A stretch of DNA of 46,665 bases, taken from Thermococcus sp. GTDB lineage: Archaea > Methanobacteriota_B > Thermococci > Thermococcales > Thermococcaceae. Location: positions 1-46,665 of the forward strand of contig NZ_JALSLB010000049.1 in assembly GCF_026988555.1 (NCBI RefSeq). Reading direction: 5' to 3'. Position 1 is the stretch's first letter; every line of letters begins with the position of its first letter. Positions 6,187 to 32,898 of this stretch are shown piece after piece. The notes beneath the pieces are model-generated. The model was given only the letters and a program-made list of their open reading frames with translations, made no database searches and was not told the DNA's origin. The translations under genes were made by a program, and so were the position numbers.

Positions 6187-6195
6187 CCTTATAAG
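6187..6195 (+). promoter_or_regulatory. TATA box of the CooC-type ATPase gene
   Basis: CCTTATAAG stands about 35 bases before the chosen ATG 6228. An inferred transcript start near 6214-6218 leaves a short leader with GGTGAT, which supports the internal ATG over the one at 6216. Confidence 0.55.
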
Positions 6196-6227
6196 TCGTG
6201 CTACTTTTTTGTTAGATGGTGATACGA

Positions 6228-9168: not shown

Positions 9169-10181
9169 CATATCCTCGGCACCGGGTCCCCCGCCGGTGG
9201 TTCAAGGAAGCGCTTCCCACCTATCCCCGTTTCCAGGATAACCTTACCCCTGTAGTCCTCCCTAACCTCACCAATGATGGCGGCATCCCGGCCCCTCTTC
9301 GTTTTTCTCATGGCCTCTAGAGCTTCCTCAGCGTATTCTTTGGCAACCACCACGACGACCTTGCCCTCGTTGGCAACGTCGTAGGGGCTAATGCCGAGCA
9401 TCTCGCCCGCGGCCCTGACCTCAGGTCTTATTGGAATATCTGCTTCCCGGATGAGCATCCCCACGTTGCTCTTCCTCGCTATCTCGTTGAGCGCGTTACT
9501 CAGTCCGGCCCTCGTGGGGTCTTTCATGGCGTGGAGGTTCTCCCAGCCGATGGCCTTTGCGACGGCTTCAACCACCTCCCAGATCGGAGCTACGTCGCTC
9601 TTCAGCTCGGTTTCAAAGGAGATGCCTTCCCTGTGGCTCATCAGGGCGATTCCATGGTCTCCTACCGTTCCGCTGATTAAAACTAGGTCGCCGACCTTCG
9701 CCCCGGCGTCGCTTACAGGTTTTTCGGCTATTCCAACTCCGGCCGTTATGACGAACATCTCTATCGGCTCTTCGACGACCTTCGTGTCGCCGGTAACGAC
9801 TGGAACCGGAACTTCCCTTGAGGTTTCGTCCATCGAGCGGAGAACCCTCTCTAGGACTTCCATCTCAAGGCCTTCGCCGAGGATCATCGAGTTTGCCAAC
9901 GCTAACGGCCTCGCCCCCATCACGGCCAGATCGTTAACCGTCCCGCTTACAGCGAGCCTTCCGATGTCCCCACCGGGGAAGAAGAGTGGCTTAACCGTGT
10001 GGCCGTCTATGGTGAAGACGATGTGCTTATCCCCAAAGGGTATTGTGGCTCCATCGTCGAGTGCGTCAAGCCCTATTCCCCCGGCGCTCTTCAAGGTCAG
10101 GGTCTTCAGGATAACGTCCCTTAAAAGCTCCTCCATTATTTCTCCACCGGCTCCGTGCTCGAGCTTTATCTTTTCCCCCAT
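9165..10181 (-). CDS. hypE: hydrogenase maturation protein HypE
   Basis: HypE dehydrates the thiocarboxamide made on its own C-terminal cysteine by HypF, producing the cyanide ligands of the [NiFe] site. The 338-residue protein has the PurM-like ATP domain (GGIGLDALDDGATI, SGTVNDLAVMGARPL, GDTKVVE) and ends in PRIC, the terminal cysteine that carries the cyanate group. The start ATG 10181 follows GGAGGGTTG; the frame open to 10226 overlaps hypF and lacks a site. It lies 41 bases after hypF on the same strand, and its stop overlaps the end of the convergent acetyl-CoA synthetase gene by four bases. Confidence 0.97.
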   Translation of the reverse strand: MGEKIKLEHGAGGEIMEELLRDVILKTLTLKSAGGIGLDALDDGATIPFGDKHIVFTIDGHTVKPLFFPGGDIGRLAVSGTVNDLAVMGARPLALANSMILGEGLEMEVLERVLRSMDETSREVPVPVVTGDTKVVEEPIEMFVITAGVGIAEKPVSDAGAKVGDLVLISGTVGDHGIALMSHREGISFETELKSDVAPIWEVVEAVAKAIGWENLHAMKDPTRAGLSNALNEIARKSNVGMLIREADIPIRPEVRAAGEMLGISPYDVANEGKVVVVVAKEYAEEALEAMRKTKRGRDAAIIGEVREDYRGKVILETGIGGKRFLEPPAGDPVPRIC

Positions 10182-10222
10182 CTTCAACCCTCCAAATTTT
10201 GTTTTGAGATGAGTACGTATCC

Positions 10223-12541
10223 TCACAGCATCAAGTCCTCCCTCGTGAGGTAGCCCTCAAGGTAAAGCCCCCCGAGGAAGGCCTGACCGACGTTTATACC
10301 GTTGTCCCCCCTCGGAACCTCCTCTGTGACGTGGAAGTTCAGGCCGTTGCTCTCGACGGCCTTCCTGACGGTTTTGACAATCAACTCGTTGTAGGCAACG
10401 CCGCCGCTCATGACGACGTCCTTTACGCCAAACTCCCTCGCCTTTTCGAGCGCCACCTCGGAGAACGCCCTCGCCAGAGCTAAGTGAACGGAGTAAGCTA
10501 TGTCCGCCGGCGAAGCCCCCTCAAGGACTTCAAGCGCCTGGACGAAGAGCTCTTCAATCTTCATCAGCTCGCCTTCAACCGGTACCTCGAACTTCAGGTC
10601 GTTCTTGCCCTTCATCGCGAAGCTCTCCAGCTTCATCGCGGGTTCGCCTTCGTAGTGCCTCCTGGAGGCTATGTTGAGCAGGACGGCGAGCGAATCGAGG
10701 ACCCTTCCAGTGGAGGAGGCGTAGGCGAGGTTTATCCCCTTGGCGAGCTGGTTCAACACAACGGAGAACTCGACCTTTCCGTACTTGAGGCTGTCTATCG
10801 CTTTTGGACAGCACTTCTCGATTATTCCCTCGAGCTCTTCAACGCTGTAGACCTTGCTGAGGATTCCCATCAAGGCCCTGAGCGGATAGTAGCTAGCCAG
10901 GTCTCCGCCGGGGAGCGGGTAGTAATCTATGTGGGCCAATCTTTCAACGTCCTCGTAGCTCAGGTAGAGAACCTCACCGCCCCAGACATTGCCATCCGTT
11001 CCGTAGCCGACCCCGTCAACCGCTATCCCTATGGCGCCTTCGAGGTTCTTCTCGGCTAAAACACTCGCTATGTGGGTGTAGTGGTGCTGAACCTGGAGAA
11101 GTTCAACGTTGAGCTCGTTTGCCAGCTCCATGGCAAGTTTTGTCGTGTTATAGCCCGGGTGGAGGTCAGCTATAATAAGGTCGAACTCATTAACGCGGAG
11201 AATCCTCATGAAGTGCCCTATCGCTTCCCTCATGAATTCGAGAACCTCGACCTTTCCCGTGTTGCCTATGTACTGGCTCGGGTAAACCTTCCCGTTCTTA
11301 GCAACGCCGAAGGCGTTCATCAGCTCGGCTCCCACTGCTAAGCCACGGTAGCTGAAGGGAATCTCTATCGGTAAAGGCACGAAACCACGGGAACGCCTTA
11401 TAACTGCCCTCCTCCCATCAACGAACTTCACAACGCTGTCATCAGCGCGGTTCAGTATCTTCCTGTTGTGGAGCAGGAGGTAGTCAGCTATATCCTTCAG
11501 CTCCTCGAAGGCTTTGTCGTTGTCCTTGACCATTGGCATTCCCGGGTAGTTGGCCGATGTCATCACGTAGACCTTGGTCTTGCTCCAGTGGAAGAGTATG
11601 TAGTGCGTCCCGGCGTAGGGGAGCATAACGCCGATGGTGTGAAGCCCCGGCGCGAGGTTTTCGGGGAGTGGGAAGGGCTCCCTCTTGCGTAGCGTCACTA
11701 TTGGCCTCCTGTAGGAGGTCAGCTCCTCTTCCTCCTCCCTGCTCACGTAGGCGAAGCTCTTCACCGTCTCAAGGGACTCGGCCATTATTGCGAAGGGCTT
11801 GGCTTTTCTGAAGGTTCTCCTCCTAAGCTCCGCAACGACGTCTTCCCTCGTTGCGTCGCATGCTAAATGAATCCCCCCGATTCCTTTGATGGCCACTATG
11901 TAGCCTTTGTCTATCAGCTCCGCCGCCTTCCTCAGCGGGTCGCCGGTGATTTCTTCGCCCTCCTTCGTGTAGAGGCGGTAGCTCGGTCCGCAGACCGGAC
12001 AGCAGACGGGTTCGGCGTGGTAGCGCCTGTTGAGGGGGTCTTTATATTCACCCTCGCAGAAGTCGCACATTGGGAACTCGCGCATCGTGGTGTTCTCGCG
12101 GTCGTAGGGCAAATCCTCGATTATCGTGAATCTCGGCCCGCAGTTGGTGCAGACTATGAAGGGGTACATGTAGCGCTTGTTCGTTGGGTCGAAGAGCTCC
12201 CTCAGGCAATCCTCGCATATCGCTATGTCCGGCGGGATTATAGAGTCTCCAGCCCCTCCTCCTCTGGAGCTCTTCTCGATGTAGAACTCCGCAAAACCCT
12301 GGGGTGGAATTTCCTTTTTCTCAAGTTTGTCGATCCTTGCGAGCGGTGGCTTTTTCCTGTAGATGTCCCTGATGAAGGCCTCAATGTCCTCGTTTCTTCC
12401 TTCAACCACTATCTCAACGCCGGCGTCCCCAAGGTTCTTGACGTAACCCTTCAGATCGTTCTCGTGGGCTATTCGGTAGACGAAAGGGCGGAACCCGACC
12501 GCCTGGACGATGCCGTTAACGTGAATTATGTACGCCCTCAT
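10223..12541 (-). CDS. hypF: carbamoyltransferase HypF
   Basis: HypF makes carbamoyl-adenylate from carbamoyl phosphate and ATP and passes the carbamoyl group to HypE. The 772-residue protein shows the full domain order: acylphosphatase (GIVQAVGFRPFVYRIA, residues 1-90), two zinc fingers (CEDCLRELFD / CTNCGPRFT and CDFCEGEYKD / CCPVCGPSY, about 105-190), a YrdC-like domain (KGIGGIHLACDA, about 200-380), and a Kae1-like domain with HHYTHIASV and AVDGVGYGTDGNVWGGE. The start ATG 12541 has GGGAAGACC upstream. It heads a hypF-hypE unit with its own TATA box, separate from hypCD. Confidence 0.97.
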   Translation of the reverse strand: MRAYIIHVNGIVQAVGFRPFVYRIAHENDLKGYVKNLGDAGVEIVVEGRNEDIEAFIRDIYRKKPPLARIDKLEKKEIPPQGFAEFYIEKSSRGGGAGDSIIPPDIAICEDCLRELFDPTNKRYMYPFIVCTNCGPRFTIIEDLPYDRENTTMREFPMCDFCEGEYKDPLNRRYHAEPVCCPVCGPSYRLYTKEGEEITGDPLRKAAELIDKGYIVAIKGIGGIHLACDATREDVVAELRRRTFRKAKPFAIMAESLETVKSFAYVSREEEEELTSYRRPIVTLRKREPFPLPENLAPGLHTIGVMLPYAGTHYILFHWSKTKVYVMTSANYPGMPMVKDNDKAFEELKDIADYLLLHNRKILNRADDSVVKFVDGRRAVIRRSRGFVPLPIEIPFSYRGLAVGAELMNAFGVAKNGKVYPSQYIGNTGKVEVLEFMREAIGHFMRILRVNEFDLIIADLHPGYNTTKLAMELANELNVELLQVQHHYTHIASVLAEKNLEGAIGIAVDGVGYGTDGNVWGGEVLYLSYEDVERLAHIDYYPLPGGDLASYYPLRALMGILSKVYSVEELEGIIEKCCPKAIDSLKYGKVEFSVVLNQLAKGINLAYASSTGRVLDSLAVLLNIASRRHYEGEPAMKLESFAMKGKNDLKFEVPVEGELMKIEELFVQALEVLEGASPADIAYSVHLALARAFSEVALEKAREFGVKDVVMSGGVAYNELIVKTVRKAVESNGLNFHVTEEVPRGDNGINVGQAFLGGLYLEGYLTREDLML

Positions 12542-12574
12542 GGTCTTCCCTCAAGTTTTTCTTACGATCCGGGG

Positions 12575-12587
12575 CTTTATAGGTTTC
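12575..12587 (-). promoter_or_regulatory. TATA box of hypF-hypE
   Basis: On the minus strand CCTATAAAG lies about 35 bases before the hypF ATG, giving an inferred transcript start near 12552. The candidate SurR half-site at 12617-12625 lies about 35 bases further upstream. Confidence 0.55.
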
Positions 12588-12616
12588 TAAAACCAAAAGT
12601 TAAAAACATAAGGGGA

Positions 12617-12625
12617 GTTTTAAAC
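12617..12625. promoter_or_regulatory. candidate SurR-type half-site upstream of hypF
   Basis: GTTTTAAAC matches GTT-N3-AAC, the core site of SurR, the sulfur-responsive redox regulator of hydrogenase genes in Thermococcales. The following bases (CATTG then GTG) match the extended form GTT-N3-AAC-N5-GTT except for the last base. Position upstream of the hypF TATA box fits activation. A six-base match can arise by chance in AT-rich DNA. Confidence 0.35.
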
Positions 12626-12636
12626 CATTGGTGTCA

Positions 12637-12653
12637 TGAAATGTGCACATTTT
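12637..12653. repeat. 17-bp near-palindrome between hypD and hypF
   Basis: GAAATGTGCACATTTTC is symmetric about the central TGCA, with AATGTGCACATT perfect. It lies 19 bases after the hypD stop codon and about 95 bases upstream of the hypF start. It could be an operator or part of a terminator for the hypCD transcript; there is no adjoining strong T-run on the minus strand. Confidence 0.3.
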
Positions 12654-12672
12654 CAATTCCTGCCCCTCTCGC

Positions 12673-13800
12673 CTAAAACAGGACCCCGTACTTGTAGAAT
12701 ATCTGGCACGTTCCCTCGTACGATACCATGCAGGGCCCTATCGGGTGCCTCGGCGTACAGGTCTTTCCGAAGTGCGGACAGTCCGTAGGCATGGCCAGAC
12801 CCCTCAGCACGGCACCGCAGAGACAGCCTTTCTCAAGGTCCGGAAGGTTTTCAGGCACCTCCACCCTGTAGAAGTTCCTAATTTCTAGATCTTTCCACTC
12901 CATCCTCACTTCAAGCCCCGTGCCCGGGAGAATACCCAAAGCCCTCCACTTCGCATCGACCACCTTGAAGTACTTCTCTATGAGCTCCTGCGCCACGAGG
13001 TTGCCCTCGTACTTCACTGCCCTCCTGTACTCGTTCACCACCCTCGCGTCGCCCTCTTTATACATCCGTATGAGTAAAAGAATCGCGAGGAGGACGTCGT
13101 TCGGTTCGAAGCCTGCGACCGCCTGAGGGATTCCGTACTTCTCACTCAGGAACTCCCAGCCCTTTACGCCTATTATCGTCGAGACGTGGCCCGCGTCTAT
13201 CAGCGCGTCTATTCTGCTCTTCTGTTTTATCAGGACCTCAACCCCCTGCGGCGTGAGCCTGTGAACCGAGTAGATCTTGAAGTTCTCAAGTCCCTCATCG
13301 ACGACGACGTTGAGCATGCCCGCGGTTGGTGCGGTCGTTGTTTCGAAGCCCGGGCTGAAGTGGACGACCGTCCTGTCGGGGTTCTCCCTCGCTATCCTGT
13401 ACGTGTCAAAGATGGAGTACACGATGCGGACGTCGTAGCCTTCCCCCTTCATATCGGCGAAGCTTCCCCGTGGTGTTGGTATCCTGTACATGTCTCCGAA
13501 CGTCGTCACTATCATCCGGTCCCCTTCCTCGTAGGCCTTCTCCATGATGAGCTCCATGGCCACGATATCCTCAACGGGCGTTATGCACACAGGACAGCCC
13601 GGACCGCTGACGACCCTGACGTTATCCGGCAGAAGCGAGCGGATTCCTGAGCGGGTTATCGTGTCCTCATGGGTTCCGCAGACGTGCATTATCCTTATTT
13701 CACCGTCGAGGCCCTTTGCTTCCTCGCGGATTTTCTCAACGAGCTTCCCTGCCACTCCCCTGTCCCTGTACGGAGCAACTACGGATTCTGCATCTTCCAT
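12673..13800 (-). CDS. hypD: hydrogenase maturation protein HypD
   Basis: HypD is the iron-sulfur scaffold on which, with HypC, Fe(CN)2CO is assembled. The 375-residue protein carries the conserved cysteine motifs HVCGTHE, GPGCPVCITP, and the late pair CLCGAVLRG and DCPHFGKTC that bind the [4Fe-4S] cluster. The start ATG 13800 follows GGTGATTGAG directly and sits one base after the hypC stop, so the two are coupled. The longer frame to 13914 lies within hypC and is rejected. It ends the hypC-like, hypC, hypD unit. Confidence 0.97.
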   Translation of the reverse strand: MEDAESVVAPYRDRGVAGKLVEKIREEAKGLDGEIRIMHVCGTHEDTITRSGIRSLLPDNVRVVSGPGCPVCITPVEDIVAMELIMEKAYEEGDRMIVTTFGDMYRIPTPRGSFADMKGEGYDVRIVYSIFDTYRIARENPDRTVVHFSPGFETTTAPTAGMLNVVVDEGLENFKIYSVHRLTPQGVEVLIKQKSRIDALIDAGHVSTIIGVKGWEFLSEKYGIPQAVAGFEPNDVLLAILLLIRMYKEGDARVVNEYRRAVKYEGNLVAQELIEKYFKVVDAKWRALGILPGTGLEVRMEWKDLEIRNFYRVEVPENLPDLEKGCLCGAVLRGLAMPTDCPHFGKTCTPRHPIGPCMVSYEGTCQIFYKYGVLF

Positions 13801-13801
13801 C

Positions 13802-14062
13802 TCAATCACCTGGGTAGTAGTAGCCTCCGAGGGCGTCCTCTTCCACCTTGAAGACCTCATCCCACGCCGACAGTATCTCCATTGCGGTCTTCTCGTCAAC
13901 CCGTTCGATTGCAAACCCCGTGTGGATCAGAACGTACTCCCCAACCCTAACGTCTGGGAGCAGGTCGATCCTGACCTCGCGCTTTACCCCGCCGAAATCA
14001 ACCCAAGCTGTCCCCTTTCCGTTATCAACCTCAAGCACCTTCGCAACCGTGGCGAGACACAT
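13802..14062 (-). CDS. hypC: hydrogenase assembly chaperone HypC
   Basis: HypC carries the Fe(CN)2CO unit from HypD to the hydrogenase large subunit through its N-terminal cysteine. The 86-residue protein begins MCLATVAKVLEV, the canonical form in which Met is removed and Cys2 binds iron. VGEYVLIHTGFAIERVDEKTA is the usual beta-barrel and C-terminal helix signature. The start ATG 14062 has GGTGAAGAGG in front; the frame open to 14089 is longer but would bury Cys2. A paralog without the cysteine precedes it, 32 bases away. Confidence 0.96.
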   Translation of the reverse strand: MCLATVAKVLEVDNGKGTAWVDFGGVKREVRIDLLPDVRVGEYVLIHTGFAIERVDEKTAMEILSAWDEVFKVEEDALGGYYYPGD

Positions 14063-14094
14063 CCTCTTCACCGTCCGTAAGTGAATCAACCGCC

Positions 14095-14370
14095 CTATTT
14101 AGGCTTTCTAAAACCCATGGTTTCCAACCCGTCCAGTGAAAACTTCATTTCGATGCTCTCCCCACCGCTGTAGGAGCAGTGGGCGAGGGTCTCCTCGGCC
14201 TCCTCCCGGCTCACCTTCTCAAGAACTATGCCGTAATATATCCTAACGTAGTCACCCGGTTCAACGTTCCTGATAAAGTCCAGTCTCACCCTCCTTTCCC
14301 TGCCCGCAACCTCGACTACAGCGGTGCCTCCATCCACCTCCAGAACCCTGCCGGCCAGCATCAGGGCCAC
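14095..14370 (-). CDS. HypC/HupF-family paralog lacking Cys2
   Basis: A 91-residue OB-fold protein of the HypC family. LAGRVLEVDGGTAVVEV, RVRLDFIRNVEPGDYVRIYYGIVLEKVSREE and the AEETLAH helix align with HypC over its length, with an extra C-terminal tail. Starting at GTG 14370, three bases after GGTGG, the N-terminus aligns residue by residue with HypC, and the second residue is Ala instead of Cys. GTG 14379 and ATG 14361 are other possible starts; neither gives a cysteine. Without it the protein should not carry Fe(CN)2CO in the usual way. It may be a partner-specific chaperone, a HypD- or large-subunit-binding modulator, or a decaying copy. It heads the unit with hypC and hypD. Confidence 0.85.
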   Translation of the reverse strand: MALMLAGRVLEVDGGTAVVEVAGRERRVRLDFIRNVEPGDYVRIYYGIVLEKVSREEAEETLAHCSYSGGESIEMKFSLDGLETMGFRKPK

Positions 14371-14403
14371 ACGTTCCACCTACCATCCAGGTCTGAAGAA
14401 AAG

Positions 14404-14419: not shown

Positions 14420-14433
14420 TGACTAGTCAGTCA
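14420..14433. promoter_or_regulatory. operator copy 1 (TetR-type) at the DUF302 promoter
   Basis: TGACTAGTCAGTCA, form TGAC-N6-GTCA, lies between the TATA element (14404) and the ribosome site GGTG (14434), over the inferred transcript start. The same 14-bp element recurs at 14928 (as reverse complement) and 15664. The tetR gene lies 500 bases away. Confidence 0.7.
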
Positions 14434-14443
14434 GGTGTTTCCC

Positions 14444-14830
14444 ATGCAGGAGATTTTTTCGCAGATGGTCAGGGTTGAGAAAAGCGGTCACGGCTTTGAG
14501 GCGACTGTTGAGAGAATCAAAAACGCCGCCGAAAAGAACGGCTGGAAAGTCACCGGAATCTTGGATTTAAGGGAGAGCCTTGGGGTCAACGTCTGCATCA
14601 TCGAAATCTGCAACGCTGAGTACGCGGGAGGTGCCCTCAAAAAACCCGAGACTAGATGGGTGGGGGCGATGATGCCGTGCAGATTCGCCGTTGCCGAGAA
14701 CCCTGATGGGGTATACGTTTACACAATGAACATGGAGCTCTTCGCCAAGGCGGTAGAAGGTGAACTTTCAGATGTTTTCAGAAGAATAGCTGAGGACGAC
14801 CATAATATTCTCTCGGACGCTCTCGGTTGA
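14444..14830 (+). CDS. DUF302 family protein
   Basis: A 128-residue soluble protein of the DUF302 family, recognised from GFEATVERIKNAAEKNGWKV, IIEICNAEYAGGAL and the MMPCRFAVAENPDGVYVY segment. The cysteines in ICNAE and PCR are typical. Its function is unknown to me. ATG 14444 with GGTG six bases upstream is chosen; GTG 14435 in the ribosome site is rejected. Its promoter holds the first copy of the operator shared with tetR and the pterin-enzyme operon, so it is probably induced together with them and may act on the same substrate or cofactor. It is divergent from the hypC-like unit. Confidence 0.85.
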   Translation: MQEIFSQMVRVEKSGHGFEATVERIKNAAEKNGWKVTGILDLRESLGVNVCIIEICNAEYAGGALKKPETRWVGAMMPCRFAVAENPDGVYVYTMNMELFAKAVEGELSDVFRRIAEDDHNILSDALG

Positions 14831-14927: not shown

Positions 14928-14941
14928 TGACTAACTGGTCA
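14928..14941. promoter_or_regulatory. operator copy 2 (TetR-type) in the tetR leader
   Basis: TGACTAACTGGTCA; its reverse complement TGACCAGTTAGTCA differs from copy 3 at one position. Outer arms TGAC and GTCA with six bases between are identical in all three copies. Position 20 bases before the tetR start codon suggests autoregulation. Confidence 0.7.
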
Positions 14942-14960: not shown

Positions 14961-15548
14961 ATGAAAACCCCCGGCAGAACACGGGATAAAATAGTAAGCG
15001 CCGCTCTCGAGCTCTTCGCGAATAAGGGCTTTGACAAGACCACGGTAGACGAGATAGTCAACCGTGCAGGGGTTGCCAAGGGCACCTTCTACCTCTACTT
15101 CAAGAGCAAGGATGACCTCGTCAAGGAGGTCGCCGTTGATGCGATGCCAATCGTAGCGTTTCCCTCACTTCAGGACCCGTACATCACGGTTTCCTATCCC
15201 ACCCTCAGGGAATTCCTTCTGGCACTGGGCAGGGAGTTCATGGAGTTCTACGACAGGAACTACCGTCGGGAGATATTCTTCAGCCTCCTGACCCTGAGAA
15301 AACGTAGTGAATCCCTCAATTTGCTCTACCATGAATCCTGTTCCGAGCTCCTCAGGACAGGGGCGCGCAGGATAATGGTCTACACGAAGGTTGGGTTTGC
15401 CCAGGCCCTCATCGCCTTTCAGGTATTCCTCGGTTCCCTACTTCACTACCTGCACGCGAGGGAATGTGTTGGTTTTAGCGATGAGGAGTACCTGAACCAT
15501 GTGGTAGACGTTGTCACCTCCTACCTCAAACTATCAGCCGAAATATGA
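14961..15548 (+). CDS. TetR/AcrR family transcriptional regulator
   Basis: A 195-residue regulator. The N-terminal helix-turn-helix is clear: TRDKIVSAALELFANKGFD, then TTVDEIVNRAGVAKGTFYLYF at residues about 28-48, then KSKDDLVKEV. The C-terminal ligand-binding domain is divergent, so the inducer cannot be predicted. ATG 14961 follows GGTGGTCGT. Three copies of the same 14-bp palindromic element lie at its own promoter, the DUF302 promoter and the pterin-enzyme operon promoter, so it probably represses all three. TetR repressors are less common in archaea than in bacteria. Confidence 0.93.
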   Translation: MKTPGRTRDKIVSAALELFANKGFDKTTVDEIVNRAGVAKGTFYLYFKSKDDLVKEVAVDAMPIVAFPSLQDPYITVSYPTLREFLLALGREFMEFYDRNYRREIFFSLLTLRKRSESLNLLYHESCSELLRTGARRIMVYTKVGFAQALIAFQVFLGSLLHYLHARECVGFSDEEYLNHVVDVVTSYLKLSAEI

Positions 15549-15640: not shown

Positions 15641-15663
15641 GTACAAGTGCAAAAGCCTTAAAA

Positions 15664-15677
15664 TGACCAGTCAGTCA
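15664..15677. promoter_or_regulatory. operator copy 3 (TetR-type) at the pterin-oxidoreductase promoter
   Basis: TGACCAGTCAGTCA sits on the inferred transcript start and 22 bases before the GTG start at 15699. It matches copy 1 in 13 of 14 positions and the reverse complement of copy 2 in 13 of 14. Confidence 0.7.
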
Positions 15678-15698
15678 GTGAAGTTAGAGGTGATGAAC

Positions 15699-17759
15699 GT
15701 GGCTGAGAAGCTAGTACCTGTTGTATGCCCATGGTGCTCCGTGGGCTGTAGATTCTACGCGGTCAGTGTCAATGGCTACATACGGCGGGTGGAGTTTGAC
15801 TACGACCATCCAAAGATTCCAAACATGGGCAAGCTCTGCCCCAAAGGGGTTGCATCGTACCAGTTCATCAACAGTCCCGACAGGCTCAAGAGACCCCTTA
15901 AGAGGGTTGGTGACAGAGGTGAAGGAAAGTTCGAGGAGATAAGCTGGGAGGAGGCCTACAGGATAATCGCCAAGAAGATCGAGGAAATCAAAGAAACCTA
16001 CGGTCCGGAGGCGCTCGCCTTCCTGGGAAGTGAGAAGATAACCTTTGAGGAGAACTACCTCGTCCACAAATTCTCCAAGGCAGTTGGGACGAACAACCTT
16101 GACTTTCCTGGACGATACTGTCAGTACTCCAACTCGCCCGCGAGAACGAAGGTCTTTGGAAGCGGTGCCGCGACCAACCCCTTTGAGGACATAGCCAAGG
16201 CCGAACTTGTGCTTATCTGGGGCCACAACCCCGCAGAAACGGCCCCCGTGATGTTCGGACAGTACATTGAGAAGGCCGTTATCGACAACGGCGTTGAAAT
16301 GGTCGTTATAGACCCGCGCTCAACAAGGGGCCATAAATACGCCTCCCTTCACCTGAAGCCCTACCCTGGAACCGACCTGGCCGTTGCACTGGCGATGCTC
16401 AACGTGATAATCGGTGAGGATCTCTACGATAAGGAGTTCGTTCAGGAGAGGACGGTCGGTTTTGAGGAGCTGAAGGAAGCCGTGAAGGACTACAGCCCGG
16501 AGTGGGCTGAGAAGGTAAGCGGTGTTCCAGCGGAGGACATCAGGAAGGTTGCAAGGCTCATTGCGGGTAAGAAGACGGCTTTCCTGGTAAACGAGGGGAT
16601 GAACCAGCACGTTAACGGTTTCAACCTTGCGCTCGCGATAGCTGATATCATAGCCATAACAGGCAACATCGGTAAGGAAGGCGTCTGGAGCGGTGTATTC
16701 CCTGGAGCCCAGTGCGGTTTCTGCGCCGCCATGACAGGCATAGCCCCCAACAAGCTCCCAACCGGAAAGCTTGTAACGGACGAGGCCGCGAGGGCAGAAG
16801 TTGAGAGGCTCTGGGGCTTCCCGATCCCCGATTGGCTAGGTCTTGACCTGACTTCGATGATACGCGAGATGGGCAACAAGATCAGAATGATGTACATCAT
16901 CGGTGGTAACATAACGAAGTCCGCACCGAACAGCGCCTGGGTCAGGGAGCAGCTCAAGAAGCTCGACTTCCTCGTCGTGCAGGATATATTCCTAACCGAA
17001 ACTGCCAAGTACGCGGATATAGTCCTCCCGGCGGCGGCCTGGTTCGAGAAGACCGGAACCGCAATAAGTGCCGAGAGGCGCGTCCAGAGAACCTACAAAG
17101 CCGCTGAGGCTCCGGGAGAGGCGAAACCGGACTGGCTCATTCTGGTTGAGCTCGCCAAGGAGCTCGGTCTCGGTGAGTACTTCAAATACGAGCACCCGGA
17201 CGAGGTCCTCAGGGAGATAAACAACGTCATCCCGCTCTTCAAGGGCGCAACGCCCGAGTACCTCGCAGAGCACCCTGAGGGATGCTTCTTCCCGTGCACC
17301 GAACCAGGTGAAGGAACCAAGATTCTGTTCAAAAACGGCTTCAAGACCTCCGATGGAAGGGCCCACCTGACTGCCGTTGAGTGGATGGAGCCACCCGAGA
17401 CCCCTGACGGGGAGTATCCGCTCTGGCTCACAAACTTCCGGCTGGTTGGTCACTGGCACACCGTAACCATGACGGAGGAGAGCCCAAGCCTCCAGAAGCG
17501 CTGGCCTGAGGAGTACGTTATGATAAACCCCGCCGACGCCAGGAGGTTCAACGTAAGGGACGGGGACCTCGTCAAGATCGAAACCCGGAGGGGGGAGGTC
17601 ATCACCAGGGCGGCGGTTACCGACCACATAAGGGAGGGGGTTATAGCCATGCCCTGGCACTGGAATGTCAACTTCCTGACGCTGGAAGAAACGCATCCGG
17701 TTACCAAGATGGCCGAGCTGAAGGCCGTAGCGGCCCGTATAAGCAGGGTGGAGGAGTGA
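15699..17759 (+). CDS. molybdopterin/tungstopterin oxidoreductase, formate dehydrogenase alpha-like, atypical active site
   Basis: Catalytic subunit of the DMSO-reductase superfamily, 686 residues, cytoplasmic (no twin-arginine signal). Cys10, Cys13, Cys17 and Cys47 bind a [4Fe-4S] cluster, and the LCPKG lysine that relays electrons is present. By position it should be the formate dehydrogenase of a formate hydrogenlyase. However, the metal-ligand region reads GRYCQYSNSP: Cys141 is followed by Gln142 where formate dehydrogenases have His. The segment after GNIGKEG (residues about 328-356, GVWSGVFPGAQCGF) has no Arg, where E. coli FdhH has Arg333. So the fold is sure, the substrate is not. GTG 15699, four bases after GAGGTGAT, is chosen; ATG 15663 lies in the operator. 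MobA, which completes the cofactor, ends the same cluster. Confidence 0.85.
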   Translation: MAEKLVPVVCPWCSVGCRFYAVSVNGYIRRVEFDYDHPKIPNMGKLCPKGVASYQFINSPDRLKRPLKRVGDRGEGKFEEISWEEAYRIIAKKIEEIKETYGPEALAFLGSEKITFEENYLVHKFSKAVGTNNLDFPGRYCQYSNSPARTKVFGSGAATNPFEDIAKAELVLIWGHNPAETAPVMFGQYIEKAVIDNGVEMVVIDPRSTRGHKYASLHLKPYPGTDLAVALAMLNVIIGEDLYDKEFVQERTVGFEELKEAVKDYSPEWAEKVSGVPAEDIRKVARLIAGKKTAFLVNEGMNQHVNGFNLALAIADIIAITGNIGKEGVWSGVFPGAQCGFCAAMTGIAPNKLPTGKLVTDEAARAEVERLWGFPIPDWLGLDLTSMIREMGNKIRMMYIIGGNITKSAPNSAWVREQLKKLDFLVVQDIFLTETAKYADIVLPAAAWFEKTGTAISAERRVQRTYKAAEAPGEAKPDWLILVELAKELGLGEYFKYEHPDEVLREINNVIPLFKGATPEYLAEHPEGCFFPCTEPGEGTKILFKNGFKTSDGRAHLTAVEWMEPPETPDGEYPLWLTNFRLVGHWHTVTMTEESPSLQKRWPEEYVMINPADARRFNVRDGDLVKIETRRGEVITRAAVTDHIREGVIAMPWHWNVNFLTLEETHPVTKMAELKAVAARISRVEE

Positions 17760-17769
17760 GGTGGTCAAA

Positions 17770-18267
17770 ATGGCGAAGAAGATATTCCTCGATTATAATC
17801 GCTGCATAGGCTGTAAGGCCTGTGAAGTTGCCTGTGAAATGACCCACGGCGAGGCCCGTATCAAGGTCTTCGAGTTCCCCGACCTCTTCACGGTTCCCTT
17901 CAACTGCCGCCACTGTGAGAAGGCACCGTGTCTCAACGTCTGCCCGAGCGGTGCGCTCTTCAGGGACGAGGATGGAGCCGTCGCCTTTGACCCTCTCAAG
18001 TGTATCGGCTGTCTCATGTGCGCCGTCGCCTGTCCCTTCGGCATTCCCAAGCTCGACGAGGAGAACAAGATCATGGACAAGTGCGACCTCTGCGCCGACA
18101 GAAGGGCGGATGGACTTCTCCCCGCCTGTGTATCCGCCTGTCCAACCGAGGCCCTCAAGTATGGCGATATAAACGAGGTCCTCTGGAACAGGGAAGGGAA
18201 GATAGTGGCCAATCTGAAGAGCTCAGCAGAGAGGGGGGAGGGCGAGGAAGCCTACCTCATCCTCTGA
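17770..18267 (+). CDS. polyferredoxin with four [4Fe-4S] clusters (HycB/FdhB-like)
   Basis: Electron-transfer subunit of 165 residues. Cysteine groups in order are CIGCKACEVACEM, CRHCEKAPCLNVCPSG, CIGCLMCAVACPFG and CDLCADRR...CVSACPTEA, enough for four [4Fe-4S] clusters, as in HycB, HydN and DmsB. It should carry electrons from the pterin enzyme to the hydrogenase. ATG 17770 after GGTGGTCAAA is chosen over GTG 17761, just two bases after the upstream stop. A T7 run (18274-18280) follows seven bases after the stop, a possible partial terminator that could raise the ratio of the first two proteins to the membrane subunits. Confidence 0.93.
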   Translation: MAKKIFLDYNRCIGCKACEVACEMTHGEARIKVFEFPDLFTVPFNCRHCEKAPCLNVCPSGALFRDEDGAVAFDPLKCIGCLMCAVACPFGIPKLDEENKIMDKCDLCADRRADGLLPACVSACPTEALKYGDINEVLWNREGKIVANLKSSAERGEGEEAYLIL

Positions 18268-18320: not shown

Positions 18321-19757
18321 TTGAACGGCGAAATATTCCTTGCATCGGCGTTGCTGCCCTTCCTCATGCTGCTCCTCTATAGAACGGAGGGTAGGGTTGC
18401 CGACTCCGCGGCTGTAGTGATAACCGGCATTTCCCTTCTCCTGAACGGCTACGGTCTCTATCTGTTCTCTCAGGGGGGCCTTAACAAGGTCTATCACTAC
18501 GTCTACATCGCTGGGGGGAACCTCGGGGAGGTCTTCGGTTTCAGCGTTGACGTTGCATCCGTACTGATAGGCTTCGTCTCAATCCTCACTGGATTCCTTC
18601 TGGTGCTCTACGCGGTTGACTACATGGGTCCGTCCAACAGGGGTTTCCCGCTTGAGGCCGGAAAGGGAAGGTTCTATGCCCTTCTGGGCCTGCTTATGGG
18701 ATCAAGCATGGTCTTCATTTACGGCACCAACCTGGTCCAGTTCCTCGTGTTCCTTGAGCTGATGGCGATCTCCCTCCTGTACCTGGTGGATTTTTACGGA
18801 GACGCGAGGAACAAGGCCCTCAAAGGATTCTTGGTACTCAACCTGGGGGTCTTTCTGCTCCTTGTCGCAGTCGCCATCCTCGGAGGCAACCAGGAGCTCG
18901 CCAAGATGGGCGCCCTCTCGCAGTCCACCAAAGACCTGGCTTTTGCCATCCTGACGTTCGCCGCCTTTGCCATGAGCTCGCAGTTTTTCTTCTACTCCTG
19001 GCTCCCAGATGCAACAGCTGGCCCGATCCCAGCCTCGGCGTACATTCACACGGCCTCCATAGTTCCGCTGGGGAGCTTCATGCTGTTCAGGGTCATCCAG
19101 TACATGGAACCCGGGAGAAACGAGTTCTGGCTCCTGGGAGCGCTCACGGTTGTCCTCATCCTCCTGATGATGGTCTACTACCCGCTCCAGAGGGACGGTA
19201 AGAAGCTCATAGCCTACTCAACCATCGCACAGACAGGAGTCGCCTACCTAACCCTGGCTTACGCCCTCGCGGGCCATCAGGTTGGTCTCCAGATCGCGGT
19301 TTACCAGGTCGTCAACCACGCCTTCGTCAAGGCGCTGGCTTTCATGAGCGTGGGGGCCTTTGCTTACTCCCTTGGAACCACGGACTTTGAGGACATCAAA
19401 GGAATCCGGCACAGCCTCCCGTGGTCGAGCGTTGCCTGGTTCCTGAGCTTCTTTGGCCTCGCGGGTGTTCTTCCACTGGGACTGTTCTTCAGCAAAGTGC
19501 TCACGGTGATGGCCACGCACCACGCTCTGGGCGTCGCCTCATGGCTGTTCCCCGGAGTTGTCCTCTTCGACGGCGCGGTGTTCCTCATAGTGATAATCCT
19601 CTGGTTCAGGGAGATGTTCTTCGGAGAACCTCATCCAAGCACGGGAATCCACTCGTCAAGGCTCATGGACGTGGCGATGCTGGTGCTCATTTTTATCAGC
19701 ATAGTAGCTCCGTGGGTCACCTTTGACGTTGTCACGAAGATAGGATTCATGGGGTGA
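18321..19757 (+). CDS. proton/sodium-antiporter-like membrane subunit (NuoM/N, HyfF/MrpD type) with Met at the TM7 lysine site
   Basis: A 478-residue protein with about 14 transmembrane segments, of the family that pumps ions in complex I, Mrp antiporters and group 4 hydrogenases. Glu146 in FLVFLELM (the TM5 glutamate) and the later HAFVKALAF lysine are present. At the TM7 site the paralog at 26890 reads TKSAQFPTYSW; this protein reads AMSSQFFFYSW, so Met218 replaces the lysine thought essential for ion movement. The start is TTG 18321 with GGGGTGAT five bases before it; a nearby ATG (18313) is out of frame. It lies between the polyferredoxin and a second antiporter-like subunit. Confidence 0.88.
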   Translation: MNGEIFLASALLPFLMLLLYRTEGRVADSAAVVITGISLLLNGYGLYLFSQGGLNKVYHYVYIAGGNLGEVFGFSVDVASVLIGFVSILTGFLLVLYAVDYMGPSNRGFPLEAGKGRFYALLGLLMGSSMVFIYGTNLVQFLVFLELMAISLLYLVDFYGDARNKALKGFLVLNLGVFLLLVAVAILGGNQELAKMGALSQSTKDLAFAILTFAAFAMSSQFFFYSWLPDATAGPIPASAYIHTASIVPLGSFMLFRVIQYMEPGRNEFWLLGALTVVLILLMMVYYPLQRDGKKLIAYSTIAQTGVAYLTLAYALAGHQVGLQIAVYQVVNHAFVKALAFMSVGAFAYSLGTTDFEDIKGIRHSLPWSSVAWFLSFFGLAGVLPLGLFFSKVLTVMATHHALGVASWLFPGVVLFDGAVFLIVIILWFREMFFGEPHPSTGIHSSRLMDVAMLVLIFISIVAPWVTFDVVTKIGFMG

Positions 19758-19763
19758 TGTGAG

Positions 19764-21782
19764 ATGTTCTTGGAATATGCACTCGGAGCGTTTATCCTTG
19801 GGGGGCTCCTGGGGTTCGTCATAGACTACAAAGCCTCCACAAAGGCCTCAAGTTTCATGGCATTAATAGGTTCACTCCTCCTCCTTGGCCAGGTCTACGA
19901 GGCCTACACAACGGGCCCGATAAAGGGGAGCATCTTCGGTATCCCCGTGCACGTGGACGGCCTATCCGAAGTGTTCCTCTTCATAGTGGGGATAGTTAGT
20001 CTGGGCTCTGCGGTGTTCTCCCTGGCGTACATGGATCACCATGAGAAGAAGGGCAAGGGCTGGGTTTACGCGATAGCCTACAACACGTTCATAGCCTCAA
20101 TGGCCCTCGTTGTGACGGTTGACAGCCTTGAGTACTTCGTCGTCTCCTGGGAGCTCATGACGCTCAGCTCGTTCATCCTGATCTTCTGGAAGGAAGAGAG
20201 AAAGGACTTGGACGCCAGTCTGAAGTACTACATAACGATGCACTTCGCGGACACGATACCCCTGTTCTTGCTCCTGGGCCTCGCCTCAGTCCTGACTGGA
20301 AGCATTCACAACCTCAGCTACTCCGCCATTCATAGCGCCCTGCTGACGGCATCTCCTGGGACGAAGGCCGTCTTCTACGCTCTTTCCCTGGTCGTGTTCA
20401 TAGCCAAGGCCGGAGTGGTTCCGCTCCACTTCTGGCTCCCGGATGCACACCCGGCAGCACCCAGCAACGTCTCGGCCCTGCTCAGCGGCATCATGATAAA
20501 AACCGCCGTTTACGGTCTTTTAAGGTTCGACTGGCAGATATCAGGGCAGAACACTGACATTGGATACATCGTGGCGGTTCTTGGAGCGATAACCCTAACA
20601 GTTGGCACCCTCTACGCTCTCAGGGAGACCAATTCAAAACGCCTGCTGGCCTACCACAGCGTCGGTCAGATGGGTTACATCTGGCTAGGACTCGGCATTG
20701 GAATGGTTCTGATACCCAGAGGGGGAACGCTGGCGGCTGTAGGCGCCCTGGGCATGTTCGCCGGTCTCTTCCATGCACTGAACCATGCGGTCTTCAAGGG
20801 ATCCCTCTTCCTTGAAGCCGGCGCGGTGGAGTACGCAACAGGTACCGTTAACCTGGAGGAGCTGGGGGGACTGGGTCCGAAGATGAAGGTGACGGCCGTC
20901 GCAACCCTGTTCTCTTCACTGGCGATAGCGGGAATCCCGCCCTTCAACGGATTCATAAGCAAGTGGCTCATCTACGTCGCAGGCTATCAGTCGGAGAACT
21001 TCGTCCTGGCCTTCGGTGCCGTGCTGGCGGTGGTCATAAGTGCCGTGACCCTTGCCTCGTTCATGAAGTTCTACGGCGCCCAGTTTGGAGGGGAGATGAA
21101 ACGCCACGAAGAAGTCAAAGAAGTTCCCGCGGTGATGCAACTAGGCGAATGGATTCTGGCGGGACTGACACTGTTCATCGGTGTGTTCCCCGGATTCGTT
21201 GTGGGCTTCCTTAACAAAGGGCTCTCAGTGGCCAACGGAGGCACGACCGCAGGCGTAACGGAGAACCTCTACAAGATAGGCTTTGGCTCAGTGCTGTTCT
21301 CGCCGGTGCTGTTCGTTATCCTCCTCGGCGCCCTTGCCGTTGGACTCTACTTCTCCTTCAGGCCTGAGTACGGCAAAGTTGCCAGGCCCTGGGATTGTGG
21401 TTCAACGAAGATCGATGAGGACGAGTACAAAACCCTAGCCGAGGGCTACTACCGCTGGTACGAGCAGAAGATAGGGTCGTTCTATCGTTTCACCGACTGG
21501 TGTTACGACTTTGGAGCTGCGATAATCCACTACACGGTTAGGGCTTACACCTGGATAGCCAGCTACTTCGTCAAGATAGTCGATACCCCCTACACAAGGG
21601 TCGAGAGCGTCTCGGACCTCAGGGAGGGTCAGCTGCTCTACATCGATGAGGAAACGTTCAAGCCGCTGGTAAGGCTCCTCAGGATAGTCAGGGACGTCCT
21701 TCCAGGGATCCGACTTGGAACCTTCGTCGTGCTGGCCCTTATAGTGGTGGGGGCCATTGTTGGGATACTGATGGTGCTGTGA
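19764..21782 (+). CDS. hydrogenase-4/complex I antiporter-like subunit (HyfB/HycC, NuoL type)
   Basis: A long membrane subunit of 672 residues. Glutamate in SWELMTLSSF and the TM7 lysine in VFIAKAGVVPLHFWLPDAHPAAPS are both present, as is HALNHAVFKGSLF, so the ion path looks complete. The C-terminal third beyond the antiporter core (PWDCGSTKIDEDEY and following) ends in one hydrophobic segment, as in HyfB/HycC. The start ATG 19764 follows GGGGTGATGTGAG, overlapping the ribosome site with the end of the previous gene. It should join the group 4 hydrogenase through the HycD-like subunit encoded next. Confidence 0.92.
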   Translation: MFLEYALGAFILGGLLGFVIDYKASTKASSFMALIGSLLLLGQVYEAYTTGPIKGSIFGIPVHVDGLSEVFLFIVGIVSLGSAVFSLAYMDHHEKKGKGWVYAIAYNTFIASMALVVTVDSLEYFVVSWELMTLSSFILIFWKEERKDLDASLKYYITMHFADTIPLFLLLGLASVLTGSIHNLSYSAIHSALLTASPGTKAVFYALSLVVFIAKAGVVPLHFWLPDAHPAAPSNVSALLSGIMIKTAVYGLLRFDWQISGQNTDIGYIVAVLGAITLTVGTLYALRETNSKRLLAYHSVGQMGYIWLGLGIGMVLIPRGGTLAAVGALGMFAGLFHALNHAVFKGSLFLEAGAVEYATGTVNLEELGGLGPKMKVTAVATLFSSLAIAGIPPFNGFISKWLIYVAGYQSENFVLAFGAVLAVVISAVTLASFMKFYGAQFGGEMKRHEEVKEVPAVMQLGEWILAGLTLFIGVFPGFVVGFLNKGLSVANGGTTAGVTENLYKIGFGSVLFSPVLFVILLGALAVGLYFSFRPEYGKVARPWDCGSTKIDEDEYKTLAEGYYRWYEQKIGSFYRFTDWCYDFGAAIIHYTVRAYTWIASYFVKIVDTPYTRVESVSDLREGQLLYIDEETFKPLVRLLRIVRDVLPGIRLGTFVVLALIVVGAIVGILMVL

Positions 21783-21792
21783 GGTGAGAGAG

Positions 21793-22713
21793 ATGGAGAT
21801 AGACGCAGTCAAACTTGGCTTCAGCCTTGTGGGTATCATCCTGCTGCTGTTCCTGCCGCCCTACCTCGACGGTATAGCGAGAAGAGTTAGGGCGAGGCTC
21901 CAGTACAGGAGGGGTCCTCCCCTCAGTCAGACATGGTACGACCTCCAGAAACTCTTCGCCCTTCCGTCGGTAAGGCCAACTGCCAGCACCCTCTTCACCT
22001 GGGCTCCCTACCTTGCACTCGCCTCATCCATCTCGGCGGCGCTGCTCCTCCCCTACGGCAACGTTATCCCTGTGAACTTCGGCTTCAACCTGGTGGTGTT
22101 CTTCTACGTGGTGGTCATGGTCAGCGTCTTCCTGATCCTGGCCGGCCTTAGCGTTCAGAACGCCTTCAGCCACATAGGTTCGTCGAGGGAGATGCAGATC
22201 GTCCTCACCGTCGAGCCGCTGATAGCGATCCTCTACGGCGTCCTGGCCTACAATGCGGGTTCGCTCAGCATATCGGAGATAGTGAGGAACCTGCACCCCA
22301 CCCCCTCGGTGCTTTTGACCTATGCGATTCTGGCCTACGCGCTCTACGTCGAGAGTGGCTTCGTGCCCTTCGACGTCGCGGAAGCCGAGCAGGAGGTCAT
22401 AGGCGGCCCGCTTGGGGAGTACAGTGGGAGGCTGCTTGGAGTCTTCTACTACGCCATCTACATCAAGCGCTTCGCCCTGCTGTGGTTCTTTGTCAGCCTG
22501 CTGACGCTTCCATGGCTCGGCCCAATAGACACCGCGGTGAAGGCTGCACTCGTGCTGGCACTCCAGTTCCTTCTGACAATAGCGTTCTACCCCATCATAG
22601 CAGCGCTTGAGGCCACCAACGCAAGGCTTCGGGTGGATCACATTGTCAAGATGAACGTTAGAATGTTCTTTGCAGGTCTGGTAGTACTCGCAATGGCGTT
22701 CATGGGGTGGTGA
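21793..22713 (+). CDS. hydrogenase membrane anchor subunit (HycD/NuoH type)
   Basis: A 306-residue multispanning protein of the NuoH/HycD family, which links the hydrogenase arm to the antiporter subunits. RARLQYRRGPPLSQTWYDLQKL, SVQNAFSHIGSSREMQI and VPFDVAEAEQEVIGGPLGEYSG are the family's cytoplasmic loops, the last including the glutamates near the quinone-like cavity. ATG 21793 after GAGGTGAGAG is chosen; GTG 21784 is inside the ribosome site. The stop overlaps the ribosome site of the hydrogenase large subunit. Confidence 0.95.
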   Translation: MEIDAVKLGFSLVGIILLLFLPPYLDGIARRVRARLQYRRGPPLSQTWYDLQKLFALPSVRPTASTLFTWAPYLALASSISAALLLPYGNVIPVNFGFNLVVFFYVVVMVSVFLILAGLSVQNAFSHIGSSREMQIVLTVEPLIAILYGVLAYNAGSLSISEIVRNLHPTPSVLLTYAILAYALYVESGFVPFDVAEAEQEVIGGPLGEYSGRLLGVFYYAIYIKRFALLWFFVSLLTLPWLGPIDTAVKAALVLALQFLLTIAFYPIIAALEATNARLRVDHIVKMNVRMFFAGLVVLAMAFMGW

Positions 22714-22715
22714 AA

Positions 22716-24515
22716 ATGGTTAGGACGAATGATTTGGAAGCTCACTTCGGGTTTGAATGCAGGGCCTGTGAAAACGGCCACTGCAACAAGGCGAGTCTCG
22801 AAACCATCCTGGGGGAAAGGGAAGGATTGGAGGAATTTTACGAAGCCTTTAAGGAACACATAAGGGAATGCAAGAGAATGACTTACGGGCAGTACATGTT
22901 CATCATCGACAGGGAGGTACTTCCTGAGGCGGTGCTCTGGTGGCACAACCATCCAAAGTTCAAGGAAACCCATCTCTCCACGGCGGTGGGAACTGACGAG
23001 AGGCCCCTGGACGGCAAATTCGTTTACATGCCCTTCCTCAGCGTGCAGGTGGAGCCACTGAACATGGACAGGAACTACTGGATGTTTCTCAAGGCTTACA
23101 TGCCTGCAGACGACCCGAGCTTTCCAAGTGTGGCCGCGAGGCTTCCAGCGGCCCTCTGGATAGAGAGGGAGGTAAAGGACCTCCTCGGCTTCAGACCCGT
23201 GGATCACCCCGACCCACGGCGGCTCATCCTACCGGAGGACTGGCCCGAGGGAGTTTATCCCCTCAGAAAGGACATGGATTATAAGCACTCCCCGGTCACC
23301 GAACCGAAGACGGAATACCGGGAGACGCCTGAGGGAACGTCGCTGGTGCCCATGGGTCCGGTTCACGCTGGCGTGGAGGAACCTGCCCACTTCAGGCTCT
23401 TCGTCAAAGGAGAGGAGATAATCGACGTTGACTACCGCGGGTTCTACTCCCATAGGGGCATCGAGAAGACCGGCGAGGGCAGGCTGACCTACAATCAGGT
23501 ACTCTTCCTAGCTGAGAGAATCTGCGGAATCTGTGGATACCAGCACTCCGTCAGCTACGCCATGGCCGTCGAGAGGCTTGCCGACGTGGAAATCCCCGAC
23601 AGGGCACGTTACATTAGGACGCTTATGCTCGAGCTCGAGAGGATCCACAACCACCTCCTCTGGGTCGGCATAGCGGCCCACTTGGTGGGCTACGACACCG
23701 GTTTCATGCACGCCTGGCGCATCCGCGAGCCCGTCATGTGGCTCGTTGAGAGACTCACCGGAAACAGGAAGCAGTACGGAATGAACATCGTCGGTGGTGT
23801 CAGGAGGGACCTCCTGGACTACCGCAAGGAGGAGGTTCTTAACGTGGTCAAGAGGATACGCGAGGAGACCAAGACCTTCCTCGATATAGCCCTCAACACC
23901 AACACCTTCATCAAGCGTGCTGAAGGCGTTGGAATCCTGCCATACAAGGTTGCGAAGGCCTACTCCGTCCTCGGACCGACCGCGAGGGCCAGCGGGAGGA
24001 GAATCGACGCGAGGCTCGACCAGGCCACGAAGACCGCCATGGCCTACAACGAGGTTGACTTCAAGGTTCCGGTTTACAAGGAGGGCGATGTTCTGGCGAG
24101 GGTCCTCGTGAGGATGGATGAGCTCTTTGAGAGCATCTGGATCGTCGAACAGCTCATCGACGGGATGCCTGGTGGTGATATATTCACGCCGATAGGGAAA
24201 CTACCGGAGTACGAGGAGGCACTGGGCTTCACCGAGGCTCACCGCGGTGAGGTCGTCCACTACGTTATGACGGGCGAGAAGAACAAGGTCTACCGCTGGA
24301 AGGTCCGCGCCCCGACCTACAACAACCTGCCCGCGATACCCGAGATGCTCAAGGGCTACCACGTGGCAGACGCGCCGCTCATCATAGCGAGCATTGACCC
24401 ATGCTACTCCTGTACCGAGAGGGTTCAGTTCGTTGACGTAAAGACGGGTAGGGTAAGGATTCTCACGGAGGCCGAGTTCAACGAACTCTCCATTGAGAAC
24501 AGGGGGGTGTTCTGA
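22716..24515 (+). CDS. group 4 [NiFe] hydrogenase large subunit, NuoC-NuoD fusion (HycE type)
   Basis: Catalytic hydrogen-producing subunit of 599 residues. The first about 190 residues are a NuoC-like domain; the rest is the NuoD/HycE domain. All four nickel-iron cysteines are present: RICGICGYQHS (Cys270, Cys273) and DPCYSCTER (Cys563, Cys566). Behind Arg569 lies a 30-residue tail, which matches the HycE tail removed by a HycI protease; such a protease is encoded at 34990-35517. Unusual is a CRACENGHC group (Cys15, Cys18, Cys23) at the very N-terminus. ATG 22716 after GGGGTGGTG is chosen. The stop overlaps the next start (TGATGG). Confidence 0.96.
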   Translation: MVRTNDLEAHFGFECRACENGHCNKASLETILGEREGLEEFYEAFKEHIRECKRMTYGQYMFIIDREVLPEAVLWWHNHPKFKETHLSTAVGTDERPLDGKFVYMPFLSVQVEPLNMDRNYWMFLKAYMPADDPSFPSVAARLPAALWIEREVKDLLGFRPVDHPDPRRLILPEDWPEGVYPLRKDMDYKHSPVTEPKTEYRETPEGTSLVPMGPVHAGVEEPAHFRLFVKGEEIIDVDYRGFYSHRGIEKTGEGRLTYNQVLFLAERICGICGYQHSVSYAMAVERLADVEIPDRARYIRTLMLELERIHNHLLWVGIAAHLVGYDTGFMHAWRIREPVMWLVERLTGNRKQYGMNIVGGVRRDLLDYRKEEVLNVVKRIREETKTFLDIALNTNTFIKRAEGVGILPYKVAKAYSVLGPTARASGRRIDARLDQATKTAMAYNEVDFKVPVYKEGDVLARVLVRMDELFESIWIVEQLIDGMPGGDIFTPIGKLPEYEEALGFTEAHRGEVVHYVMTGEKNKVYRWKVRAPTYNNLPAIPEMLKGYHVADAPLIIASIDPCYSCTERVQFVDVKTGRVRILTEAEFNELSIENRGVF

Positions 24516-25968: not shown

Positions 25969-25969
25969 G

Positions 25970-26287: not shown

Positions 26288-26325
26288 TGTTTTACGTTCC
26301 TTTCAAACTTTTTGGGGGTGAAAAT

Positions 26326-28359: not shown

Positions 28360-28361
28360 GG

Positions 28362-30260: not shown

Positions 30261-30261
30261 G

Positions 30262-32884: not shown

Positions 32885-32898
32885 TGGGGGTGATAGGC

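Follow-up and report, generated by a model that had tools for sequence, protein, structure and literature searches.

The pterin oxidoreductase encoded in the window (the whole 46,665-nucleotide stretch of Thermococcus sp. DNA analysed here, contig NZ_JALSLB010000049.1) belongs to a clade of formate dehydrogenase (FDH) relatives in which the catalytic histidine and arginine are replaced by glutamine and proline. The catalytic triad of FDHs consists of Sec or Cys followed by His, together with an Arg (Sec140, His141 and Arg333 in E. coli FdhF). Judged from sequence comparison, the protein is probably the FDH-derived catalytic subunit of a membrane-bound, H2-evolving complex (fdh1/Mhy1, or 'Group 4') with a remade pocket, whose physiological substrate would then be something other than formate.

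The open reading frame spans 15663 to 17759 on the forward strand (698 residues counted from 15663) and carries the Pfam domains Molybdop_Fe4S4, Molybdopterin and Molydop_binding. An initial annotation, made from the letters of the window, had read the metal-ligand region as GRYCQYSNSP with Cys141-Gln142, and had stated that Arg is absent from residues of about 328-356; both readings hold, numbering included, and GVWSGVFPGAQCGF contains no Arg. The codons TGT CAG specify Cys141-Gln142 when counted from 15699, or Cys153-Gln154 when counted from 15663. In alignments with FDHs from the PDB and with E. coli FdhF, Gln lies opposite His141 and Pro347 opposite Arg333, within a loop that reads VFPGAQCGFC where FDHs have PxRGQNNVQG. 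The start of the gene is best placed at 15699 (ATG, the choice of the initial annotation) or at 15705 (GTG), since a conserved operator-like palindrome overlaps the ATG at 15663; orthologues begin MAEKLVPVVC, in line with the GTG. The AlphaFold model of the protein has a pLDDT of 90.7. Assembly or sequencing error as the source of the Cys-Gln/Pro site is excluded, the site being common to 36 sequences from different genomes. Features of the locus are collected in Table 1.

Table 1. Features of the Cys-Gln locus and its surroundings, in window coordinates.
Feature	Position	Strand	Basis or remark
Cys-Gln pterin oxidoreductase, Fdh1/Mhy1-type catalytic subunit	15705..17759	+	Pfam domains, alignments; start 15705 GTG or 15699 ATG
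Metal-ligand Cys codon and next Gln codon (FdhF Sec140-His141 positions)	16119..16124	+	Alignment, clade comparison
Loop GVWSGVFPGAQCGF in place of FDH PxRGQNNVQG; Pro at Arg333, Ala at Gln335	16680..16721	+	Alignment
Operator-like palindrome TGACCAGTCAGTCA upstream of Cys-Gln gene	15664..15677	+	Motif in relatives
Second exact operator copy, divergent hypC2/DUF302 promoter	14420..14433	+	Motif search
Third operator-like copy, 1 mismatch, just upstream of TetR gene	14928..14941	-	Motif search
hypE, hypF, hypD, hypC, hypC2, [NiFe] maturation	9165..14379	-	Divergent from operon
DUF302 protein between operator and TetR	14435..14830	+	Gene reading
TetR-family regulator, conserved upstream of Cys-Gln operons	14961..15548	+	Operon comparison
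FdhB-type [4Fe-4S] electron-transfer subunit	17761..18267	+	72-96% identity across Cys-Gln operons
Mhy membrane subunits: two NuoL/N-like, one NuoH-like	18321..22713	+	Family searches
Group 4 [NiFe] hydrogenase large subunit, RICGIC and DPCYSCTER, C-terminal extension	22707..24515	+	Both Cys pairs
Hydrogenase [4Fe-4S] subunit (24515-25135) and small subunit (25132-25968)	24515..25968	+	Family searches
MhyI-like small protein	25961..26287	+	Position, 30-85% identity in related operons
p161, operon-specific, minimal-nucleotidyltransferase fold	26284..26769	+	Fold, co-occurrence
Seven-gene Mrp/Mbc-like antiporter block	26890..34461	+	Several subtype A operons lack it between p161 and mobA
MobA-like nucleotidyltransferase (bis-MGD cofactor)	34461..35039	+	Operon comparison

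In 94 Thermococcales genomes the closest relatives of the window protein form a sharply bounded group, at 77–93% and then 57–61% identity, with the next group at 48% or below. The window protein is of subtype A (GRYCQYSN / VFPGAQCGFC) and shares 57–61% identity with the other subtypes. Members of the clade occur in 40 of these genomes, counting fragments in G047, G049 and G052; no Cys-Gln gene was found in 21 other genomes of the phylum, a small sample of it. Beyond the phylum the search consisted of a contig scan with patterns from a single sequence, which missed even 60% identical subtypes, and of a plasmid search, in which all of the matches listed were below 40% identity. The Cys-Gln sequences form one clade in the tree (SH-aLRT 100, stem 0.55), and since this clade is nested inside the Cys-His-Arg FDHs the site is best read as derived, by remodelling of an FDH. 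The window gene, compared to close relatives, shows strong purifying selection (dN/dS approximately 0.07–0.08), which excludes a decaying pseudogene. Because selection is strong and the Cys ligand and Lys44 are kept, the protein is probably a working, re-tooled enzyme rather than a decayed one. The same genome (approximately 1.97 Mb in 68 contigs) encodes two more FDH-like proteins, both Cys-His-Arg and of 44% identity. One of them lies on another contig of this organism (L095, positions 1-8064), where frh-like genes are followed by a Cys-His-Arg fdh2-type, canonical frh-fhl cluster that starts with this FDH gene.

To define the columns that set the clade apart, 36 Cys-Gln proteins were compared to 25 Cys-His-Arg proteins, E. 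coli FdhF among them, in E. coli numbering and with the T. litoralis-type group set aside. Few columns are fixed differently between the two sets, and most of these are at the active site. H141Q and R333P are present in all 36 Cys-Gln sequences and in none of the 25 others; M297E and T300N each occur in 34 of the 36, Glu297 being missing from subtype D. Further diagnostic columns are Q335A, V338G, N228L, Y10W, G12S, T271S and T579N; His181 has become Ala, Asn or Ser, and the GSS/GSA motif at 107–109 has become GSE, ASE or GTE. The metal-ligand Cys, the Fe4S4 cysteines and Lys44 are retained. One suggestion of the initial annotation, that Gln substitutes for His within a Thermococcales subfamily, is thus right as to the subfamily and wrong in taking Gln as the sole change: Arg333, Gln335, Met297, Thr300 and His181 are lost as well. 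At the positions of R161, K225 and R476 of the window protein the clade is invariantly basic, unlike other FDHs; R/K161 is situated in the helix that follows the metal-ligand Cys. R. capsulatus FDH acquired nitrate reductase activity when precisely the catalytic His and Arg were exchanged (H387M and R587T) and one further Arg was introduced (PMC10385643), and D. vulgaris FDH requires Met405 for activity (PMC11134731), a residue that corresponds to FdhF Met297 as judged by its spacing to Thr408-Gln409.

By fold and phylogeny the protein fits the FDH branch of the DMSO-reductase family: the top Foldseek hits are FDHs, the closest solved relatives by sequence are FDHs (481 bits, versus 314 for NapA), and the clade lies among Thermococcales FDHs. 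Of the triad that accompanies the FDH family TIGR01591, all 36 sequences keep the Cys and have Gln for His and Pro for Arg. The window protein scores 662.5 against TIGR01591 and the other Cys-Gln subtypes 655, 690 and 713, compared to 795–938 for Cys-His FDHs; the curated NCBI cut-off of 666.25 is passed by two of the four Cys-Gln subtypes tested. With scores this near the cut-off, members of the clade therefore receive an automatic formate dehydrogenase label. The periplasmic nitrate reductase NapA resembles the window protein in that it has a Cys ligand but neither the His nor the Arg of FDHs, and in Asn at 300, but differs in its Cys-Met and Thr and in retaining Met297, Gln335 and His181. 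A nitrate-reductase-like site is ruled out, Gln and Pro standing where Cys-Met and Thr are needed; against NCBIfam NasC the window protein scores 489 bits (cut-off 1100).

In 19 operons with enough flanking sequence, the window included, the order is FdhA-FdhB-Mhy(C-H), optional Mrp genes, p161 and usually mobA, with a TetR gene upstream in most; all 19 have intact [NiFe] Cys pairs. A TetR gene approximately 350 nt upstream has been described for Group 4 fhl (PMC10025317). The Mrp/Mbc-like block of the window is found in G018 and at least begins in G047, and is absent at this place from T. gammatolerans, G020 and G022. One Cys-Gln FdhAB pair, of subtype D, occurs without a hydrogenase (L062:13316-18035, genome G089) and faces an Mbc-like block, a ferredoxin, a DUF169 protein and a TauE/SafE-family transporter. 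Elsewhere in the window an in-frame TAG at 8431-8433 interrupts a gene for an AMP-forming acetyl-CoA synthetase (7153-9168), which is a single gene in the nearby relatives L010 and L011; it represents a sequencing error, a polymorphism or a broken gene.

The palindrome TGACYRGTCAGTCA lies directly upstream of 35 of 35 subtype A–C Cys-Gln genes and of none of 10 Cys-His genes. Across the 94 genomes it has approximately 60 sites in 39 genomes (two hits for the reversed control), and every site that could be placed, that of G052 included, is at a Cys-Gln locus; as a clue to the substrate, a target gene outside Cys-Gln loci was looked for among these placeable copies and was not found. Within the window, a scan at up to two mismatches gives three matches against 1.1 expected by chance, a weak signal when taken alone. 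The gene for p161 is similarly restricted: 35 of 94 genomes have both it and the Cys-Gln gene (by an earlier count than the 40 given above), four and one have either singly, and 54 have neither (Fisher p = 4e-20). Searches of p161 gave no Pfam or PDB sequence match, and a minimal nucleotidyltransferase fold alone. Its invariant Glu-x-Asp (E41-I-D43 of A4), together with Glu82, matches the arrangement of acidic residues in nucleotidyltransferases, and p161 may be an active transferase. An orphan p161 gene beside hypC-hypD (L102:18684-19106), in genome G090, which lacks a Cys-Gln operon, is possibly a remnant of operon loss. The TetR repressor, the operator to which it would bind, and p161 probably serve the Cys-Gln system alone.

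Cys-Gln genes are also present in the genomes that we take to be those of P. abyssi (G004) and T. gammatolerans (G019, Mhy1); G077 is presumably T. litoralis. Genome G026 was taken as T. onnurineus NA1 because its three FDH genes match in order and spacing and its Fdh3 has Cys133-His134, as in the purified formate dehydrogenase (PMC8965080). In this species Fdh1 (TON_0281) is Cys-Gln with Pro for Arg, whereas Fdh2 and Fdh3 are Cys-His-Arg. The proven FdhA proteins hence do not share the site, and Gln cannot be regarded as the normal residue of proven Thermococcus formate hydrogenlyases.

The initial annotation had likened the layout of the cluster to that of Thermococcus formate hydrogenlyase; this is correct for the general plan, but the best match is the paralogous fdh1-mfh1-mnh1 and not the proven fdh2 cluster. 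The T. onnurineus fdh1-mfh1-mnh1 cluster, T. gammatolerans Mhy1, the P. abyssi FDH-hydrogenase 4 cluster and Group 4 fhl belong to the same clade as the window protein, with Cys-Gln and Pro, and share its operon plan (TetR, FdhA, FdhB, Mhy, p161 and usually MobA) without a formate transporter; the window operon, which encodes a subtype A protein, differs from them in its additional seven-gene Mrp/Mbc-like block. T. onnurineus Fdh2-Mfh2-Mnh2 (Group 1A) likewise combines a pterin subunit, FdhB, a group 4 hydrogenase, Mrp subunits and MobA, but its pterin subunit is Cys-His-Arg and only 44% identical, and the system has focA and lacks both p161 and the window-type operator. The Fdh-Mhy operon of T. 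litoralis (Group 3), the first such operon described, has the plan of the window operon, and a transporter is absent from both; its FdhA, at 34% identity, keeps Cys-His and has Ala at the Arg position, and is excluded as a proven Cys-Gln enzyme. Formate-driven H2 production by this complex was reported as 'not fully reproducible' (Takacs 2008, PMC2432063). Group 3 FdhA (L066:1981-3894 in T. litoralis; L067-L070) has Ala for both Arg333 and His181 on a long branch (1.37), and departs from the FDH site in another way than the Cys-Gln clade does.

That the Cys-Gln protein is still a formate dehydrogenase, in which Gln and a basic residue from elsewhere (R/K161, for example) replace His and Arg and which removes internal formate, is unlikely, though several observations speak for it. 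The sequence as a whole and the predicted fold come closest to those of FDHs, two of four subtypes score above the FDH cut-off, and the basic gains at R/K161, K225 and R476 are invariant; these points count against a changed substrate, as does the absence of Glu297 from subtype D. The operon is also laid out as in proven formate hydrogenlyase. Formate removal has moreover been proposed for fdh1/Mhy1 operons (PMC4463584). Against it, all 25 other FDHs that were compared, the T. litoralis-type group being left aside, keep His141 and Arg333, and in the Cys-Gln clade no fewer than six pocket positions have changed together. The distribution of the formate transporter gene focA also argues against formate: 24 of 25 copies are found at most 12 kb from a Cys-His FDH, the remaining one is on a contig apart from any FDH match, and no copy is close to a Cys-Gln gene. 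A second transporter gene of T. onnurineus, TON_0538, adjoins fdh3 (PMC8965080). The window, as the initial annotation had said, contains no formate transporter gene, nor was one (PF01226) found in the assembly of its genome, in which the contig with the canonical FDH cluster ends inside that cluster. Of the T. onnurineus fdh clusters only fdh2 (hydrogenlyase) is essential for growth on formate; fdh1 is not needed and cannot replace it (PMC5522443). This failure of fdh1 could reflect low expression, and the growth and transport data are confounded by the missing transporter. Expression of Group 4 fhl in T. paralvinellae is lower on formate, and Groups 2–4 are reported to have no SurR-binding promoter (PMC10025317); the operator of the window operon is a different one.

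The complex might instead run in reverse, the Mhy hydrogenase oxidising H2 and the pterin subunit reducing a sulfur compound or other oxidised substrate. This is suggested by the higher levels of the Fdh1 proteins TON_0276, TON_0280 and TON_0281 in sulfur-grown cells, in which other hydrogenases are down (PMC4463584), and by the TauE/SafE-family gene adjoining one subtype D pair; the medium of the proteome study, however, may differ in peptides as well as in sulfur, no sulfur gene is conserved beside subtypes A–C, group 4 hydrogenases of Thermococcales are known to evolve H2, and the loss of positive pocket residues is ill-suited to anionic sulfur substrates, so that we regard reversal as improbable. 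Very improbable indeed is a subunit without catalytic activity that has only a structural or electron-relay role in a hydrogenase fed by ferredoxin. Such a role would fit the absence of the known catalytic His and Arg, but the metal-ligand Cys, the Fe4S4 cysteines and Lys44 are kept, Cys and Gln are both invariant, most operons retain MobA, selection is strong, and the new set of pocket residues is uniformly conserved, which is not a picture of decay.

We return, then, to a re-tooled enzyme with a different donor. Formate is disfavored because of the site, the transporter pattern, T. onnurineus genetics (PMC5522443) and regulation (PMC4463584, PMC10025317). The low-potential donor other than formate that the initial annotation had put forward is the favored reading. 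The protein would be an active bis-MGD enzyme, most likely containing tungsten, that takes two electrons from such a donor at the pterin site. From there, as the operon and known formate hydrogenlyases suggest, electrons would pass through FdhB and the Mhy iron-sulfur subunits (MhyG/H) to the [NiFe] hydrogenase, which would reduce protons to H2 as ions are moved by Mhy/Mrp-type subunits. A rather doubtful guess is that an uncharged product of fermentation, for instance an aldehyde derived from peptides, acts as the donor; we make it since two His and one Arg have disappeared from the pocket and Glu has been gained at 297 (and 109). Known respiratory complexes of Thermococcales include ferredoxin:H+ (Mbh), CO:H+ and formate:H+ oxidoreductases. 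It is quite possible that an energy-conserving X:H+ oxidoreductase, where X is uncharged, lies hidden under the formate hydrogenlyase label; it would have a repressor of its own, which perhaps senses X, and a maturation factor of NTase fold.

These operons are already known, as fdh1-mfh1-mnh1, Mhy1 and Group 4 fhl, and go by the name of formate hydrogenlyase (Holden and Sistu 2023, PMC10025317); we found no mention of their missing catalytic His and Arg in the open-access literature searched. The operon is present in approximately two fifths of the Thermococcales genomes searched, and published work counts it as formate hydrogenlyase when reasoning about formate and hydrogen at vents. Should formate not be the substrate of the enzyme, such genome-based predictions would be wrong for many species. 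The clade is also a natural experiment on the residues that define FDHs: His and Arg are gone, while metal ligand and fold are kept. If our reading is true, well-studied archaea would have an unrecognised fuel coupled to hydrogen production and ion pumping.
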